Source: Halobacteriales archaeon YIM A00013
GTDB taxonomy: Archaea; Halobacteriota; Halobacteria; Halobacteriales; Haloarculaceae
Length of the DNA stretch: 64,000 nt
Direction of reading: 5' to 3'
Assembly: GCA_025041195.1 (NCBI GenBank)
Contig: JAKCFM010000001.1
Span: 1,054,001 to 1,118,000, forward strand
The position numbers and the translations under genes were made by a program. The notes beneath the pieces were generated by a model. It made no database searches and was not told the DNA's origin. It saw only the letters and a list, made by a program, of their open reading frames with translations. This document shows positions 54,032 through 61,698 of the stretch, piece by piece (the stretch's first letter is position 1; the number at the start of each line of letters is the position of its first letter).

Positions 54032-55018
54032 TCACCAGCGATTCTGGTTCGGGAACCGTCGCCACAACACCAGTAGCACTACTCCCGCAAGCACAGTACC
54101 ACTGAGTACTCGTCCGAACAGTGAGAGCGCTGATGGATTCTCGGTCGATGGTCCAGTTGGCGTGCTCTCCGCATTGTTCGATGGATCTGTTGGAGCGACC
54201 GTCTCCATTGGAGTTGCTGAGTTCGTTGAAAACGGGGTGATTGAGGATCGAATCGGTGTTTCGGGATCATTTTCCTCAGTTACTGAGTTTCCATCAGTTG
54301 ACGCCGTTGACGGATACGAACTGCTTCCAGATGGGGAAACGGTTCGGCCATTCACTACCAGCGTACCGTTTTGGGTGACAGATCGGTTTTGTAATGCGCC
54401 CGTAAAGTAGAACGCGTCGGACGAATCCCTGACCGTTCCTTCCACTGCCGTCGTGTTTTGACTGATAACATCGATTATATTGTCGTCATCCTCAGCAGAT
54501 TCGCCGGCAGAAAGGACCCCATCAACGTGCACTGTATATTCGATGGGTGCACCCCCTGACGATCCGTTATCCGGTCTGATTTCGAGATGATTTGCACGCA
54601 AGATTTCGGGATCCACTCGGTTGCCATCCAGAAACACCCGAACCCCATCTCCATCGAACTGAAACGTCTCGATATACCCCCGATATTCGATCGTATCCTT
54701 CGTGTCCGCTCTCGATTCATTCCAGGGCAATGGCCCCACCCGACCAGACAATCTCGTACCTTGTGGGGCCGCCTCTTCGCTTTCTGTGGTGTTAATCCAC
54801 TCAGACGCAGAAACCATATACTGAACGGAACCGTTCGTCGATTCGATCGTGAGTGTATGTGTTTCTTGATTTGTAGAAGATATCTCGCCCGGGGTTGATT
54901 CTTGCCCCCAGACTGTACTACTTGGTGCACCAGCACAGACCACCACCGCAGAGGCCATGAGTAGCACAGCCAGGCCAAAACACCCAGCACGACGGAACAG
55001 TTCTGAAAGGTTGATCAT
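54032..55018 (-). CDS. Exported, C-terminally membrane-anchored protein with two HTL-FTG modules
   Basis: Protein of 328 residues. A hydrophobic N-terminal signal (FGLAVLLMASAVVVCAGAP) is followed by two copies of a beta-rich module (about 54-143 and 144-231) and a Thr/Ser/Pro-rich linker (about 235-290). A single membrane helix (GTVLAGVVLLVLW) with a positively charged tail closes the protein. This is a typical surface-anchored haloarchaeal layout. The modules match those at the C-terminus of the beta-helix protein at 42699. No enzymatic domain was found, so it may be a binding protein. ATG 55018 is chosen over one at 55039. Confidence 0.72.
   Translation of the reverse strand: MINLSELFRRAGCFGLAVLLMASAVVVCAGAPSSTVWGQESTPGEISSTNQETHTLTIESTNGSVQYMVSASEWINTTESEEAAPQGTRLSGRVGPLPWNESRADTKDTIEYRGYIETFQFDGDGVRVFLDGNRVDPEILRANHLEIRPDNGSSGGAPIEYTVHVDGVLSAGESAEDDDNIIDVISQNTTAVEGTVRDSSDAFYFTGALQNRSVTQNGTLVVNGRTVSPSGSSSYPSTASTDGNSVTEENDPETPIRSSITPFSTNSATPMETVAPTDPSNNAESTPTGPSTENPSALSLFGRVLSGTVLAGVVLLVLWRRFPNQNRW
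54326..54589 (-). repeat. HTL-FTG module, copy D (in-frame protein repeat)
   Basis: Encodes HLEIRPDNGSSGGAPIEYTV, HVDGVLSAGE, VEGTVRDSSDAFYFTGALQN and NGTLVVNGRTVSPSG. The D-x-F-x-FTG core and the closing NGRTVSP turn match copies A and B. Confidence 0.7.
54590..54859 (-). repeat. HTL-FTG module, copy C (in-frame protein repeat)
   Basis: Encodes HTLTIESTNGSVQYMVSASE, then LSGRVGPLPWNESR, a divergent DTIEYRGYIETFQF in place of D-x-F-x-FTG, and DGDGVRVFLDGNRVDPE. It is the most divergent of the four copies. Confidence 0.65.
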
Positions 55019-55093
55019 TACTATATCAAGACTGAACAACTTTTTATAATTGATGATAACTTATCAAATAATTTCATAATGGTATCCATTCAG

Positions 55094-56311
55094 TTAGCCG
55101 GTTGATTCGTTGGCTGATTTGAGTGTGCTGAGATCAAGCGGTCCAGGCGCAGCCATTCGCATCCTCGGGGAATCTTCAGCAGCTGCGAGACTGGACTCTA
55201 TTTCCTGGAGTCGATTTCGACCGAGATCGACCGCCGTTGCCCCATGTTTGTTGCCAGTCACGCGAACATCCGCATTGCGGGGAAACAGTGCCACACTGCC
55301 AGGATCACCGTTTCTATCTCCATCACGCTCTTGGGCACACCAGTTGTTACAAAACCGTCCAAACTGAGCAGGAATTCCCTGAATTGAAAACGCTGGATAC
55401 GACGTGAGTTCGAAGACGTTGTGATGGATGTTGACGAATCCTCCTGCACGAATTCCACGCCCAGTACGGCCGAGGTGGTCGAGGTTCTCGCCGAGATAAT
55501 GCATATCAAACGAGTGCAGCGAGGCGTGGGGACCGACGACATTAAATCGAGCTTCGTAACTGTTCGTCGCATATCCGAACCCAGCGATTGAGTGGCGATT
55601 ATAATCGAAGGAGTTCCACTCGATCAGGTGCACGCCGTTGTACAACTCCATTGGGTAGCCGTAATGTTCCATCTGATTGTGATGCATCCAGTTGTGATGG
55701 ATCCATCCACTGGTTTGGGCAGTGGCGGCACCCAGCGCGAATCCGGCAAACGTCCACCCAGCGACTTCATTGTGATCGATAATCGCGCTTGCGCCCTGGA
55801 GATTGAATCCAAGCGCTTCAAAGTCCACTTCGTCGTACCCGCCACGTCTCGGCTCAAATTGGTCAAAGCGCGGACCGTGGAGACGTAGTCCCGTAATACG
55901 ACACCAGCCAGAGTGCTGCATGAAAAGACCATTGTCGTACCCAGTTGTTTTGATTAATCCACCGGAGCCACCTTCAAGCGACCTGTTGCTGGCTATCGTC
56001 ACGTTTGGTGCGATCGGCACGCCGATCGATCCCGTCATATCGATTGTCGCCGATTCGGGAATCCACACGATCGCATCCGGTGTACTGACTGCTTGCATCA
56101 ACGATTGGCGATCAGTTGCGGTCGTCGTAGCCATTGTTTCTGTAATTCGATGGCGCTGTGACGAAAATTGGAGAGAAGGCCGATCGGTCGCGCCCTGTGG
56201 CCGTGTTCCTCGCCAGATAGCCATACAACCGGCCACGCTGGAGATTCCGACCGTGCCCACGGAGGTCGCACCAGCGAGAAATTCACGACGGCTGACTGAC
56301 CATTCAGGCAT
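55094..56311 (-). CDS. Tat-exported lipoprotein with right-handed beta-helix
   Basis: Protein of 405 residues with a Tat signal (SRREFLAGATSVGTVGISSV) ending in an AGC lipobox, so it is probably lipid-anchored on the outer face. The rest is a parallel beta-helix of pectate-lyase-like type. It has IAPNVTIASNRSLEGGSGGL, ITGLRLHGP, SAIIDHNEVAGW, GWIHHNWMHHNQME and FVNIHHNVFEL, the histidine-rich coil turns seen in polysaccharide lyase 1-like proteins. Catalytic residues could not be assigned. It is transcribed away from the adjacent secretion-like module. Confidence 0.8.
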   Translation of the reverse strand: MPEWSVSRREFLAGATSVGTVGISSVAGCMAIWRGTRPQGATDRPSLQFSSQRHRITETMATTTATDRQSLMQAVSTPDAIVWIPESATIDMTGSIGVPIAPNVTIASNRSLEGGSGGLIKTTGYDNGLFMQHSGWCRITGLRLHGPRFDQFEPRRGGYDEVDFEALGFNLQGASAIIDHNEVAGWTFAGFALGAATAQTSGWIHHNWMHHNQMEHYGYPMELYNGVHLIEWNSFDYNRHSIAGFGYATNSYEARFNVVGPHASLHSFDMHYLGENLDHLGRTGRGIRAGGFVNIHHNVFELTSYPAFSIQGIPAQFGRFCNNWCAQERDGDRNGDPGSVALFPRNADVRVTGNKHGATAVDLGRNRLQEIESSLAAAEDSPRMRMAAPGPLDLSTLKSANESTG

Positions 56312-56638
56312 AATTCGATCGATCGGCAGTTATTTTACCCATCCGTGTCAACCGCCACCGCGGAGCGATGTCAACAGTTGGCTCACCCAGCGAAGATGCC
56401 AGTCGAATCCAATGTTCGAGAAGACACCAACCAGGGCGTTCACGCCAGTTCTCGGGCGGATCCAACAAATGATTCATATCTTTGAATATATCAAATATAT
56501 TTCTATTCGGCAGATTCGTTCCATCCAATTCCGTTCTAAATGGCATTGTTCGCGATAGTTCCAATGCTATTGTAAATAACCTTTTGGGTAACTAATCCGG
56601 TACTTTTTTATACCCGCTTGCTAATATTAAAATATATC
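56312..56638. promoter_or_regulatory. AT-rich divergent intergenic region; leaderless promoter of the T4SS-like module
   Basis: About 325 bases separating the lipoprotein gene from the secretion-like module; no credible gene. TTTATA at 56607-56612 lies 27-32 bases before the ATG at 56639, ideal for a leaderless transcript. The DNA from here through the next two genes is visibly richer in A and T than the rest of the window. Confidence 0.5.
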
Positions 56639-57109
56639 ATGGTAAAAAAGACGCCTGTGTCTGGAATCAGAGCACGTGTGGTGGGTGGTATGAAACGGAT
56701 TTTCCATACTGCTGCTCACGTACTGATGCGGCCCGGCCGCCACGATTTACACCTTTCAGTACTATTGATAGCGACAGCACTTTCACCCGTACTGGCGAGA
56801 CCAGTAGTGGCCCAGGTTGGAGTCTCTGAGGCAGAACAGGTCCTCTGTAGCGGCTCAACGGGATTTAATATCGCACAGATTATTACTGTGGGCCTAGGAT
56901 TAATATCAATGTACTTCATCCTTAAATTCCTAGTTCGGATGATGACGGGGTTAGACAAGGCAGGGAGCACTGATTCTGGGGCGCAGGCCCAGGGGAAACA
57001 GGAAGCGAAGGGAGGGATCTACTCACTTGTTGCTGCACTACTTCCTGTACTGGTTCCGGTTTTCCTGAACGTAGCAGGGATCAATGTGGCGTCCTGTCTT
57101 TTCCCATAA
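56639..57109 (+). CDS. VirB2/CedA1-like two-helix pilin candidate
   Basis: Small membrane protein of 156 residues. A basic N-terminus and a hydrophobic signal-like segment (LSVLLIATALSPVLARPVVAQ, about 39-59) are followed by two hydrophobic helices (about 77-103 and 127-148). They are joined by a short Gly/Ala/Lys/Gln-rich loop (GKQEAKGG). One cysteine precedes the first helix (C70) and one follows the second (C153), so the mature protein could be closed by a disulfide. Signal peptide, two helices and small polar loop are the VirB2-type conjugative pilin layout, also seen in archaeal DNA-import pilins. The assignment rests on topology and the VirB4 neighbour, not clear sequence identity. Confidence 0.6.
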   Translation: MVKKTPVSGIRARVVGGMKRIFHTAAHVLMRPGRHDLHLSVLLIATALSPVLARPVVAQVGVSEAEQVLCSGSTGFNIAQIITVGLGLISMYFILKFLVRMMTGLDKAGSTDSGAQAQGKQEAKGGIYSLVAALLPVLVPVFLNVAGINVASCLFP

Positions 57110-57117
57110 CGGTAGTG

Positions 57118-58467
57118 ATGAGTATTCAGCCTCGAGAAGCCATTATCGCCGTATGTTTTATCGGAATCCTTCTATTTGCGGGGAGTGGGACGGCTGTCGC
57201 TGAATCAGTAGCCAATCCTTGGACTGATGATTCAAATCAGTTCGACCGGAGTGAGACGGACGCCCTACGGCTCAGTGAACCCGGGGGCGTCTACCAACAG
57301 AATGAATCGACAGAACAGACGAACGCCTCGGACTATACAATTAATGTGGGGTTCGTCGAAGTTCCCCTCGGTGAAGCGATCACAACCACCTTGCAATTTT
57401 TCATTGATCAGCTTCAGGCAGGAATCAGTTCGCTCGTCACGTCGTTTTCGGAATACATTCTTGGGCTTCCTGCGCCAGGAGAAGCGGATGATCCGTCATC
57501 ATGGGTCACTGCCGGTGGGGTCTGGCAGGCAGTGTACGCAATCTATGGAATAATGTCTGCACTCGCCATTGCTTTTCTGACTCCATCGTTTATGGTTGCG
57601 ACGGACACCAAACAGAAACGAAAACGGAACGCTCGATTCGCAGAACTTGGAAAAGCGGCATTTTTCATAATTCTTGGTATCCCAATTACAGCATTCTTTC
57701 TCCATTTGGGGAACTCGTTAGTAATGACGATTGCACCAAGTAGTACGGAGATGTTAGTAAACACAGATGGACTTGCAAATTTAGGTATTGGAATTATTTT
57801 TGGATCCATCCTTATTGGTGTGAAGTCAATGGCTGCATTATTTGCGATTGGATTTACAGTCGTAATTTATTTGCTTGCGCTTCTTTCTGTAGCGCTCTGG
57901 CCGCTTTTCTGGGCGACAAGCGTACAACCTGAGAACACTGTGAAGTCTTTCGGATATCTTGGTCTCTCAATATTCCCACAAATAATCTTACTAAAATTTT
58001 TGCAAAGCGGTATAATGAGATTTCTGTATTATCTCCCTCTCGATACCCTAGGCAATTCCGTCTTCAAACTCGTGGCAACGACGATTGGGATTGGTATCAC
58101 GTTTATTGGTCTTCCGTATATTTTCCTTACAAAACTGCTCCCCGGTGCAGCGATGGTTATCGATCGGGGCGCCGACAGTACGACGCAAACCTCAGGCGAA
58201 ACGGCATCCGGGGGACGGCCAGCCGGAAAATACACGAGTACTCAAAGCGCCGGCGGCATGTCGCAATCGGTTGGTCCACGGAGTAGTGGTCCCACAACCC
58301 GTTCGCACCAACACCAACAGCGTCCCAACGCCCGGGCAGGGCCGAATCCAGACCGAGCAGCACCAGTAGACAGGACTGACGTAGGTGCTACGGAGTCGGA
58401 AAGGAATTCGAATGAACCATCCTCGGATCGACGATCTGTTGGCCCCGAAAGTAGGGGCCCCCGGTAG
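57118..58467 (+). CDS. VirB6/TrbL/CedA-like polytopic membrane protein
   Basis: Protein of 449 residues. A signal peptide (IIAVCFIGILLFAGSGTAVA, 9-28) and an exposed acidic region (about 30-80) are followed by an amphipathic stretch. About six hydrophobic segments lie between 133 and 342 (around 133-160, 178-205, 217-240, 241-267, 280-300, 316-340). A disordered Gly/Ser/Arg/Gln-rich tail (350-449) closes the protein. Such a channel-like protein between a pilin candidate and a VirB4 ATPase corresponds to VirB6/TrbL of bacterial type IV secretion and CedA of archaeal DNA import. ATG 57118 directly follows a GTG at 57115. Codons are unusually AT-rich for the window, suggesting transfer. Confidence 0.62.
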   Translation: MSIQPREAIIAVCFIGILLFAGSGTAVAESVANPWTDDSNQFDRSETDALRLSEPGGVYQQNESTEQTNASDYTINVGFVEVPLGEAITTTLQFFIDQLQAGISSLVTSFSEYILGLPAPGEADDPSSWVTAGGVWQAVYAIYGIMSALAIAFLTPSFMVATDTKQKRKRNARFAELGKAAFFIILGIPITAFFLHLGNSLVMTIAPSSTEMLVNTDGLANLGIGIIFGSILIGVKSMAALFAIGFTVVIYLLALLSVALWPLFWATSVQPENTVKSFGYLGLSIFPQIILLKFLQSGIMRFLYYLPLDTLGNSVFKLVATTIGIGITFIGLPYIFLTKLLPGAAMVIDRGADSTTQTSGETASGGRPAGKYTSTQSAGGMSQSVGPRSSGPTTRSHQHQQRPNARAGPNPDRAAPVDRTDVGATESERNSNEPSSDRRSVGPESRGPR

Positions 58468-58524: not shown

Positions 58525-61500
58525 ATGGATCCATCAACAAACGACAACAGTTCAAGCGTGTCCGGGCTCATCCTCCCGCACGTCGATACGACCGTCACAA
58601 TAAAAGGTATCGTCACTTTCGACAACATGTACGCGTTCGCGGTCCCCGTAGCTGCCTTCGTGATTGCACTGCTCGCCTGGTCGATCAATTTCTACATGGT
58701 CGCAGCGCTTGCGTTTACGATTACGTTGGTGGCACTACCGGTGGTGTTGTATCTTACCTATACGAATCCGTACTACCTATCATCATGGGAACGAATCGAA
58801 CGATTTGTCGAATCGCGGCGACTCCAGCAGAAATTTCCATACCAGTATCATGAGACGTTGGGGCGGGAAATCCACGGTGTGAAGCGATTATACCCCGATG
58901 GTACCGCAAAAATGAACGATGGGAGACGAGTGGGACTCATCGGCGTTGAGGGGATGAATGCCTGTCGAATTACCGATGAACAGGCGAGCACATACGTCGA
59001 AACACTCACAAGCGGCATCGATGAACAGATCAAGGATCTTCCATTTTCTATTTACGCGACATCGGCCAACTTCGACCCTGAATCGTTGGTAAAGCATCTC
59101 TCTGAACAATCGACAGCCATTGAAGAGTCCTCACGCGAGACCGATTCAAAGACAAAACAGTACATCTCCGAGCTGCTCTCCGATGTCACATCGTGGTTTA
59201 TCGAAACTGAATCCGAGATGTGGGAGGCAAACCGGTGGGAGTATTTCATCATTGTCTCCGTACACCCTGACGAACTCCACGTCGATCCAATCTCGGAACG
59301 CACAGGCATCATTCCTCGTCTCATCCCCTTTTCAAGCACTAATGAGGACGAACAGAGACAGGCTATCGAAACCGAACTTCGGGCCGAGCTGGACAACCGG
59401 ATGGCCACATTCGAAAGTGCACTTTCCTCCGTGAAAGGAATCAACAGCGAGCGAGCCGGCGTCCTGGATACGACCCGGGTATTGCTCCGATACTGGTCAG
59501 GAGAGCCGAATCTCACTCACGGATCCGAAATTCAGCGTTCGATGGCGGACGACGACAGCCGCGTGAACGTTGGCGAAAGCCCAACCGAACGACTGCTGAC
59601 GCCGAGCAAACTCGACGCCGCAGATGGTCGCATTGAAGTGGGTGATGAACTCTGTAAGACGTTCTGTGTCATGGGCTGGCCGGTCGAACCGCCACCGATG
59701 TTTCTGGCGAATCTGTTTACGATGCGCACGGCGAACGTCGACGTTAAGCTTCACGTCGGCCCGGAACACAAACAGGCGACGATCGACGAGTTGGAACGGC
59801 TGTACGCAGATGTTGAATCCGAGGAGATGGAACGCGTCCAGAAAATGGACGCGAGCAAAATCCAGATCCAGAACGACAAAGACGCCGTCCGGAAGATGTA
59901 CCTTCTATTGCGTAACACGACAGCACAACCATGGAAGGTAAGTATGTACGTAACCGTCCGTGTGGGCCCAGAGGAGGCCCACGAGTACGCAACGAAAACA
60001 GGTCGAAGTGGTGACTCACTGTATCTATCGAAAGTCCGGGCGCTCGAAGATGCGTGTGACGATGTTCTTGAAGTGCTGACGAGTGCGCCAGCTGGACTCG
60101 GTCCACGACAACCGAGCACGGACGTCTCAGCCCTCGACATGTTCGAATCATCATCCCCAACGGGGACGGATCTCTACCATGAAAAAGGGGATAAACCCAA
60201 ACGAACTCGGATGCTTGGTGGGGCCGTCGCTGCAACGTTTCCCTGGTGTGCAGGCGTGATGCAAGAGCCCGGTGGACTCCGTTTTGGTCGAAACAAACAG
60301 AACGGATCGGCAATCTTTGCGGATCCGTTTGAGCGAGGGGCGCCGCACATGCTCACCCTTGGACAGACACGTTCAGGAAAAACGTACTCCGTCGAAACGG
60401 CGTTGGCAGAGTGGTTCTGTTCCGATCCGTCGCGGTCGCTCATCGTCTGTGACACTGAACAGGGATTTGAGGGATTGACGCAGCTCTGTGGTGGAACGCA
60501 CATCGTGGTGGATGGTGAGCAGACCATCAATCCATTCGATATCCACCGTCCACCCCAACGCGTCAGGGAAGCCAACATCGGTGGCTCAAGTCACTTCCAA
60601 ATGAAAATAGACGAAGTGACGAGCTTTTTCGCCGGCATTCTCCGAGCGCAAGGGATTGATCCGTCACCATACATATCGACGATTGAAGACGCAGTCCAGC
60701 AGACGTATGAAACGCGTGGCATCTCACACGATCCCGCAACGCACGCGACGGATTCCCCGACAATCACTGACTTCGTTGATGTGTTAGAACAGATGCTCAC
60801 GACGCCTGAGCGCTTTACATTCACTGGCCACGAACGAGAGGCAGAACAACGGGTTCGAGTGGTGTCCGACTTGCTGGATAAGCTCAGTGGCTTTAAAGAA
60901 AACCGAAAGTATCACCATATGGTCGGTGAAACAGACACTGGCATCTTGGACAGTGAAACTGATATGGCGTATATCGACCTCAGCCAGTTCAATGAGGCGT
61001 CTGAGGCCGATAAATCCGTTATGCTCCACCTTATTTTCGGACAAGTGTATCAGAAGGTAAAGCGCACTGCTGGAGAAATCATCTTTTTAATCGATGAGGC
61101 GCACTTTTTGCTCCACAGTGAGGAAATGATCGAGTATCTCCAGGATGCAGCCCGGAGCTGGGCACGGTACGATGCTGCACTCTGGTTCGTAACGCAGTCA
61201 CCGCGAGAGTTCATCCAGCGGGCCCGATCGGTTGGTGCAGGCCAAGAAAATCAACGACGGACGATTCTGGACCAGTGTTCGATCATCCAGACGTTCAGAA
61301 CGCCCCGAATTGAAACGGAGATGCTCATGGATGGATTGGGACAAAACCGCCTCCAGGCGGAGTTCGTCAGAAACGCCGCTGTCACAGGAAGCACGGAGAG
61401 TCAGTACTCCGAGTGTTTGATCCACTTTCAGGATCGCGAAGGATGGTGGGAGAGCCATATTGAAGCGAGTCCGTTTGAGGATCTGGTCTGGAACTACGCC

Positions 61501-61698
61501 GGACGTACGCACGGTGAGTTCGATCGCTATCTCCGGGACAACTGGGACGGCTTTGACGATGCAGATCTTCCCTCACTTGATCCGCCATCACACGAATCAT
61601 CGCACCCTGAGAACAATGATAACGGCGTTTCGGAACTGTTTTCAGATAAGCCTGCAACGAACGGCGAGGAGTACACCGAACCCTACGGCGAACAGTGA
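58525..61698 (+). CDS. VirB4-type ATPase with N-terminal membrane hairpin (VirB3-VirB4-like fusion)
   Basis: Protein of 1057 residues. A two-helix membrane hairpin near the N-terminus (about 35-78, AFAVPVAAFVIALLAW and ALAFTITLVALPVVLYLTY) is of VirB3/PrgI type. A long VirB4-like middle domain follows, then an FtsK/HerA/VirB4-class motor. Walker A is GQTRSGKT (613-620), Walker B is IIFLIDEAH (852-860). Other family marks are VVDGEQTINPFDI, the LWFVTQSPREF sensor segment and an arginine-bearing QNRLQAEFVRNAA. It energises pilus assembly and substrate transfer in type IV secretion (family knowledge). It begins 57 bases after the VirB6-like gene and ends 6 bases from the convergent hflX. Confidence 0.85.
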   Translation: MDPSTNDNSSSVSGLILPHVDTTVTIKGIVTFDNMYAFAVPVAAFVIALLAWSINFYMVAALAFTITLVALPVVLYLTYTNPYYLSSWERIERFVESRRLQQKFPYQYHETLGREIHGVKRLYPDGTAKMNDGRRVGLIGVEGMNACRITDEQASTYVETLTSGIDEQIKDLPFSIYATSANFDPESLVKHLSEQSTAIEESSRETDSKTKQYISELLSDVTSWFIETESEMWEANRWEYFIIVSVHPDELHVDPISERTGIIPRLIPFSSTNEDEQRQAIETELRAELDNRMATFESALSSVKGINSERAGVLDTTRVLLRYWSGEPNLTHGSEIQRSMADDDSRVNVGESPTERLLTPSKLDAADGRIEVGDELCKTFCVMGWPVEPPPMFLANLFTMRTANVDVKLHVGPEHKQATIDELERLYADVESEEMERVQKMDASKIQIQNDKDAVRKMYLLLRNTTAQPWKVSMYVTVRVGPEEAHEYATKTGRSGDSLYLSKVRALEDACDDVLEVLTSAPAGLGPRQPSTDVSALDMFESSSPTGTDLYHEKGDKPKRTRMLGGAVAATFPWCAGVMQEPGGLRFGRNKQNGSAIFADPFERGAPHMLTLGQTRSGKTYSVETALAEWFCSDPSRSLIVCDTEQGFEGLTQLCGGTHIVVDGEQTINPFDIHRPPQRVREANIGGSSHFQMKIDEVTSFFAGILRAQGIDPSPYISTIEDAVQQTYETRGISHDPATHATDSPTITDFVDVLEQMLTTPERFTFTGHEREAEQRVRVVSDLLDKLSGFKENRKYHHMVGETDTGILDSETDMAYIDLSQFNEASEADKSVMLHLIFGQVYQKVKRTAGEIIFLIDEAHFLLHSEEMIEYLQDAARSWARYDAALWFVTQSPREFIQRARSVGAGQENQRRTILDQCSIIQTFRTPRIETEMLMDGLGQNRLQAEFVRNAAVTGSTESQYSECLIHFQDREGWWESHIEASPFEDLVWNYAGRTHGEFDRYLRDNWDGFDDADLPSLDPPSHESSHPENNDNGVSELFSDKPATNGEEYTEPYGEQ

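Follow-up and report, generated by a model that had tools for sequence, protein, structure and literature searches.

The closest described counterparts of the locus analyzed here are Ced and Ted, two domesticated DNA-exchange systems of Crenarchaeota. Ted, found in the Thermoproteales, comprises the pilin TedC together with TedA and TedB (PMC9905601), and the leader of Pyrobaculum TedC is predicted to be cut at AVA/QA, the slash marking the cleavage site (PMC9905601). Ced (CedA1, CedA and CedB) is known from the Sulfolobales and Aeropyrum. The absence of a dedicated coupling protein, as judged from the gene lists, appears to be a trait of both. Beltran et al. (PMC9905601) state that, to their knowledge, a conjugation apparatus domesticated for DNA transfer was unreported beyond Ced and Ted, and co-option of a type IV secretion system (T4SS) has since been proposed for Patescibacteria (PMC12102498). 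As to haloarchaea, the Haloferax volcanii genome paper suggested that a region containing VirB4/D4 homologs serves DNA secretion, fusexin-carrying mobile elements contain VirB4 and VirD4, and a TraD-annotated gene rises in a mating transcriptome, while the archaeal passages of a 2025 review contain no haloarchaeal system. No haloarchaeal VirB2-like pilin or domesticated haloarchaeal T4SS appeared among the titles and abstract openings searched, a set lying mostly outside the subscription journals.

The window, i.e., the whole 64,000-nucleotide stretch analyzed, comes from a Halocatena-like haloarchaeon and encodes a 156-residue protein that is the first gene product of a three-gene row consisting of a pilin, a VirB6-like membrane protein and a VirB4 ATPase. 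Two further genes diverge from this row, and the features are as follows.

54032..55039, minus strand: secreted, C-terminally anchored, fast-evolving protein (in other units, homologs adjoin the same genes)
55094..56311, minus strand: divergent gene for a protein with a TAT signal and a lipobox (VAGC), possibly a right-handed beta-helix
56639..57109, plus strand: probable VirB2-like pilin gene, 156 aa (translation, orthologs and profile comparison)
56639..56812, plus strand: long leader, residues 1-58, ending in VVA/Q, a predicted signal peptidase I site
56846..56848, plus strand: codon of the invariant C70 (translation and family alignment)
56855..56947, plus strand: hydrophobic helix 1, about residues 73-103 (hydropathy)
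56948..57016, plus strand: polar loop, residues 104-126, containing GKQEAKGG at 119-126 (translation and family alignment)
57017..57094, plus strand: hydrophobic helix 2, about residues 127-152 (hydropathy)
57095..57097, plus strand: codon of the invariant C153 (family alignment)
57115..58467, plus strand: VirB6-like polytopic membrane protein, 450 aa (position between pilin and VirB4, hydropathy of homologs)
58525..61698, plus strand: VirB4-type ATPase, 1057 aa (NCBIfam matches)

The initial annotation had proposed a VirB2-like pilin in which C70 is followed by a helix, the GKQEAKGG loop, a second helix and C153. The 156-residue translation and its hydropathy, with hydrophobic stretches at about residues 36-60 (in the leader), 73-105 and 123-156, bear out this layout. 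A TTG at 56618 represents a possible earlier start in the same frame; however, the open frame of the Halocatena marina ortholog is only 157 aa long and opens one codon 5' of the equivalent ATG, thus excluding upstream starts in that species, and the ATG at 56639 is the likely start codon. Judging from the PVVA/Q motif, signal peptidase I would cut after VVA, and, of 17 VirB4-linked pilins, 16 have an xxA/Q motif ahead of the first cysteine. Orthologs were found in all seven Halocatena genomes searched, with 72-96% identity in the other six and pN/pS values of 0.07-0.27 within the genus. A chance open reading frame was ruled out by these orthologs, by the low pN/pS and by the invariant cysteines. 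Sequence searches of the PDB returned nothing credible and no relative of the pilin, and the AlphaFold2 models of the pilin monomer (mean pLDDT of 53, 8-row alignment) and of the TAT protein (37.7, 5-row alignment) were too poor to be used in a fold search.

The initial VirB2 interpretation is partly supported. The Pfam T4SS_pilin family, PF18895, has a two-helix profile that aligns to pilin residues 77-144, but the match is weak (E of 0.003; 18 bits, below the curated cut-off of 26.6); within the family, 5 of 17 members matched PF18895, the best at 1.7e-4. Alignment of the pilin family to T4SS_pilin relatives by hhalign gave a probability of 85% (E of 6e-6). In addition, the protein shares the traits of such pilins, namely, small size, a long leader with predicted cleavage, two hydrophobic helices and a short polar loop, and it is encoded together with VirB4 and a VirB6-like gene, the VirB6 part being assigned by position and hydropathy. 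The protein is likely to be a VirB2-type pilin.

The ATPase gene matched NCBIfam VirB4-family models at best at 1.2e-35, below their curated cut-offs, and the VirB4 assignment was made on these matches together with the gene order in annotated plasmids. The 450-aa protein matched no Pfam family and no PDB entry, and a viral_contigs scan retrieved no relative; we therefore call it VirB6-like, a putative identity taken from its position and the hydropathy of its homologs.

The locus resembles Ted in its chromosomal VirB2-, VirB6- and VirB4-like genes, in having the pilin gene immediately 5' of the VirB6-like gene and in the predicted cleavable leader (AVA/QA in Ted, VVA/QV here). It differs in that the herA, rad50 and ParA neighbors of Ted (PMC9905601) were not recognized at the window locus, and in that the window system, which belongs to a different phylum, is known from its genes and not from a filament. 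Ced is likewise a minimal chromosomal VirB2/B6/B4 set with a two-helix pilin, but CedA1 is unprocessed (PMC9905601) and CedB belongs to the HerA clade (PMC11868833), and the window ATPase matched the CedB model with an E of only 0.039. The T4SS on plasmid pHGLR3 of Haloferax gibbonsii shares both the pilin, VirB6-like, VirB4 order and the cysteine pair; in contrast to the window unit, it is plasmid-borne and has a coupling protein gene next to its end (annotated, and over the PF10412 cut-off).

We then looked at the unit across the genus. The seven Halocatena genomes searched all carry the unit, including its VirB4, on the chromosome; they represent six distinct ones, G006 repeating G002 at this locus. 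Sugar-metabolism genes upstream and hflX downstream flanked the unit in 5 of the 6 distinct genomes, including the window's own. The exception was H. marina, in which neither flank was found within the 16-kb locus, although the two divergent genes, the pilin, the VirB6-like gene and VirB4 were still together, indicating at least one relocation of the unit. With presence in 7/7 genomes and shared flanks in 5/6, H. marina being different, we classed the unit as chromosomal, vertically kept and off a mobile element. Purifying selection was plain for the pilin, VirB4 (pN/pS of 0.06-0.21 within the genus) and the TAT protein but less marked for the VirB6-like protein and for the outermost gene. The GC content is 0.485-0.538 over 54-62 kb, compared to mostly 0.56-0.62 across the rest of the window.

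The unit also lacks a neighboring coupling protein gene. Among 30 VirB4 places tabulated from genomes G000-G006, G016, G025, G034 and G047, a coupling protein lay within 3 kb of none of the 7 Halocatena chromosomal VirB4 genes but of 17 of the 23 other places. The plasmid relatives have a coupling protein gene after VirB4, recognized by annotation and, in 3 of 5 checked, by PF10412 over its cut-off. G003 contains an intact unit and no coupling protein anywhere in the genome by profile search (E of 1e-10), a search that may have overlooked a divergent one, while G000 carries a coupling protein on contig C3. The one relaxase family searched, PF03432, had no match in the window's own genome. In the VirB4 tree, the six Halocatena rows formed one clade (100/100), nested within a group (100/98), some members of which are plasmid systems that do have a coupling protein. 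The systems without one were not supported as a single clade, the tree requiring three changes.

Taken together, retention, flanks, selection, the missing coupling protein, the nested tree and the GC content point to a unit that was captured from a plasmid, lost its coupling protein and has been inherited vertically. Our main reading, to which we assign a probability of about 0.6, is that the gene encodes the VirB2-like pilin of a minimal T4SS unit that an ancestor of Halocatena captured from a haloarchaeal plasmid and that was kept without a VirD4-type coupling protein, as in Ced and Ted. The unit is best read as the haloarchaeal counterpart of these domesticated DNA-exchange systems. If so, it would add another archaeal branch to them and provide a conjugation-type alternative to fusion-based mating. 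Speaking against this reading, haloarchaea possess a fusion-type mating route, so that DNA exchange via the unit is not required. The initial annotation had not noted this wider context, in which an apparently domesticated secretion unit lies on the chromosome and solo pilins occur in addition; the wider system is more interesting than the disulfide alone.

Under the main reading, cleavage of the leader at VVA/Q would leave a mature pilin of 98 residues, which would sit in the membrane as a hairpin of two helices, its termini on the outer side and its charged loop on the inner side. The pilin would be pulled out by VirB4 and the VirB6-like protein and polymerized into a hollow, lipid-containing pilus serving contact-dependent exchange of host DNA, and C70 and C153, both outside, could be joined by a disulfide, either in one subunit or across two.

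Conservation of both cysteines in homologs had been put forward initially as a check on the pilin. An iterative profile search over the collected loci yielded 39 distinct members of the pilin family, and both cysteines were present in all 37 rows covering the two columns (the fragments L023 and L032 were left out), these being the sole fully conserved columns among those examined. Eight pilins encoded on four named plasmids or in the genus of G025 likewise have the pair; of these, L080 is the same gene as one of the 39 rows. The pilin of L138 has two cysteines beyond the pair. Pfam T4SS_pilin matches were collected across the phylum (294 genomes). Cysteines on either side of the helix pair, one ahead of helix 1 and one following helix 2, were present in 8 of 8 haloarchaeal matches (two families) and in none of the 12 readable matches from families of the same phylum outside the order (14 non-haloarchaeal places over the PF18895 cut-off, with L115 and L131 left out and L108 and L117 incomplete). 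In this sample, the pair therefore appears to mark haloarchaeal pilins. The other families are presumably non-halophiles. The distribution of the pair fits high salt and oxic versus anoxic life, with an oxygenated exterior, equally well, and salt and oxygen are not separable. We thus did not accept high salt, which had been suggested initially, as the sole reason for the cysteines.

A covalent link between the ends of a helical conjugative pilin has a precedent in TrhA of R27, in which a peptide bond connects the two ends and is required for the pilus to form (PMC12037004). By analogy, the outer ends of the two helices in the window pilin could be linked by a disulfide with the same function, in place of the peptide bond of TrhA. 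The termini of assembled VirB2 are about 34 Å apart (Beltran et al., PMC9905601), a distance hard to reconcile with an intramolecular bond if the window pilin shares this geometry; a bond between neighboring subunits is an equal possibility. A word search of Beltran et al. (PMC9905601) retrieved no mention of cysteine or disulfide. With the invariant pair, end-linking in conjugative pilins can be tested directly by biochemical means.

Each Halocatena genome contains 5 to 10 pilin-family members versus 1 to 8 VirB4 match rows (1e-10); in G003, there are seven pilins and one VirB4 row. The window's own genome has four extra pilins without VirB4, at chromosomal sites with conserved neighbors: near topoisomerase VI in 5/5 loci compared, beside a HEAT/AAA gene in 6/6, near PEP synthase in 3/3 and at a fourth site in 2/2, the own genome being counted each time. 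In several of these solo pilins, the loop is shortened or the xxA/Q motif is missing. The genes of about 800 aa beside them were considered as partner ATPases and rejected, Pfam identifying them as CDC48-like AAA proteins, PEP synthase and topoisomerase VI-B; we take them as unrelated neighbors. Several pilins alongside VirB4, mostly without a relaxase, are also found in the T4SSs of Patescibacteria, but the VirB2-like genes form arrays there, whereas the solo pilin genes of Halocatena are scattered (PMC12102498).

The solo pilins pose the question of whether one machine uses several pilins, and they bear on the first of the other explanations, which we consider unlikely: that the unit builds an adhesive or cell-linking pilus that transfers no DNA and serves aggregation, hyphal growth or biofilm formation, with the solo pilins varying its surface. 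The number of pilins per genome, several of them solo at conserved sites, would suit such a pilus, as would a locus without a coupling protein in a genome without a PF03432 relaxase. Furthermore, strain YIM 93972, which is close to Halocatena pleomorpha, forms hyphae and spores (PMC10067837). However, Ced and Ted are likewise without a recognized relaxase, and yet Beltran et al. (PMC9905601) assigned DNA transfer to them, and the retention of VirB4 and the VirB6-like gene under selection also speaks against a purely adhesive role.

The lower GC content, the plasmid relatives, the changed flanks in H. marina and the coupling protein on contig C3 of G000 could also be accommodated by an ancient, still mobile integrative conjugative element that borrows its coupling protein in trans from a plasmid. 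We regard this as improbable, given that the flanks are alike in 5 of 6 distinct genomes, that there is no tRNA in the window and that G003, where no coupling protein was found, offers nothing to borrow.

The two exported proteins encoded divergently beside the pilin raise the further option of a protein-secreting unit acting without a coupling protein, and bacterial type IV systems without a coupling-protein homolog have indeed been described (PMC12102498). Both neighbors nevertheless have their own export signals and no effector-like cargo was seen within the five-gene unit examined, making this option very improbable. Finally, a nonworking relic of an integrated plasmid, as the missing coupling protein and lower GC content might suggest, can practically be dismissed, all three genes being open in aligned orthologs and pN/pS being 0.06-0.27 for the pilin and VirB4 within the genus.

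The TAT protein probably belongs to the secretion system. A homolog lies within 10 kb of 19 of the 21 VirB4 places in Halocatena and G047; these genomes contain 49 homologs, and the 19 near VirB4 compare to 0.84 expected by chance, near-duplicate copies (G002 and G006, and two G047 replicons) reducing the number of independent pairings. Four of eight homologs matched Beta_helix (E of 0.1), the best at 2.3e-5, just under the cut-off. That the protein opens the surface layer is speculation.

Outside Halocatena, the genus of G025 has a unit with VirB4 at 86-92% identity to that of G025 in 4 of 8 genomes, G025 included, and in the three other genomes the flanks were shared and no coupling protein was detected. 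The VirB4 of G025 lies apart from Halocatena in the tree, with a weak placement (90/95), and its unit may be an independent further domestication, as judged from sequence. A broader version of our main reading, which we find rather doubtful, would have haloarchaea domesticate such units repeatedly (in Halocatena and, separately, in the genus of G025) for host DNA exchange without coupling protein or relaxase, with a pilin stapled by a disulfide instead of cyclized, the main pilin swapped for dispersed solo pilins, and the TAT beta-helix lipoprotein replacing VirB1 and opening the S-layer or surface glycan.

Further observations were made along the way. Four loci in the genus of G025 (L080, L148, L149 and L150) contain the pilin, VirB6-like and VirB4 genes in synteny. 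A solo pilin adjoins a divergent gene for a membrane-anchored protein with HEAT and double AAA (CDC48-like) domains in six Halocatena genomes (L070, L075, L085, L142, L143 and L145), and a solo pilin without the loop belongs to a gene cluster that is conserved close to the topoisomerase VI subunit B gene (L069, L074, L084, L141 and L146). On an Actinarchaeum plasmid (L072:6667-9535), one VirB4 gene has two or three adjoining pilin-family genes. The surface protein encoded at 54032-55039 on the minus strand has a pN/pS of 0.56-0.64 beyond the closest pair and accompanies the TAT protein in several units.
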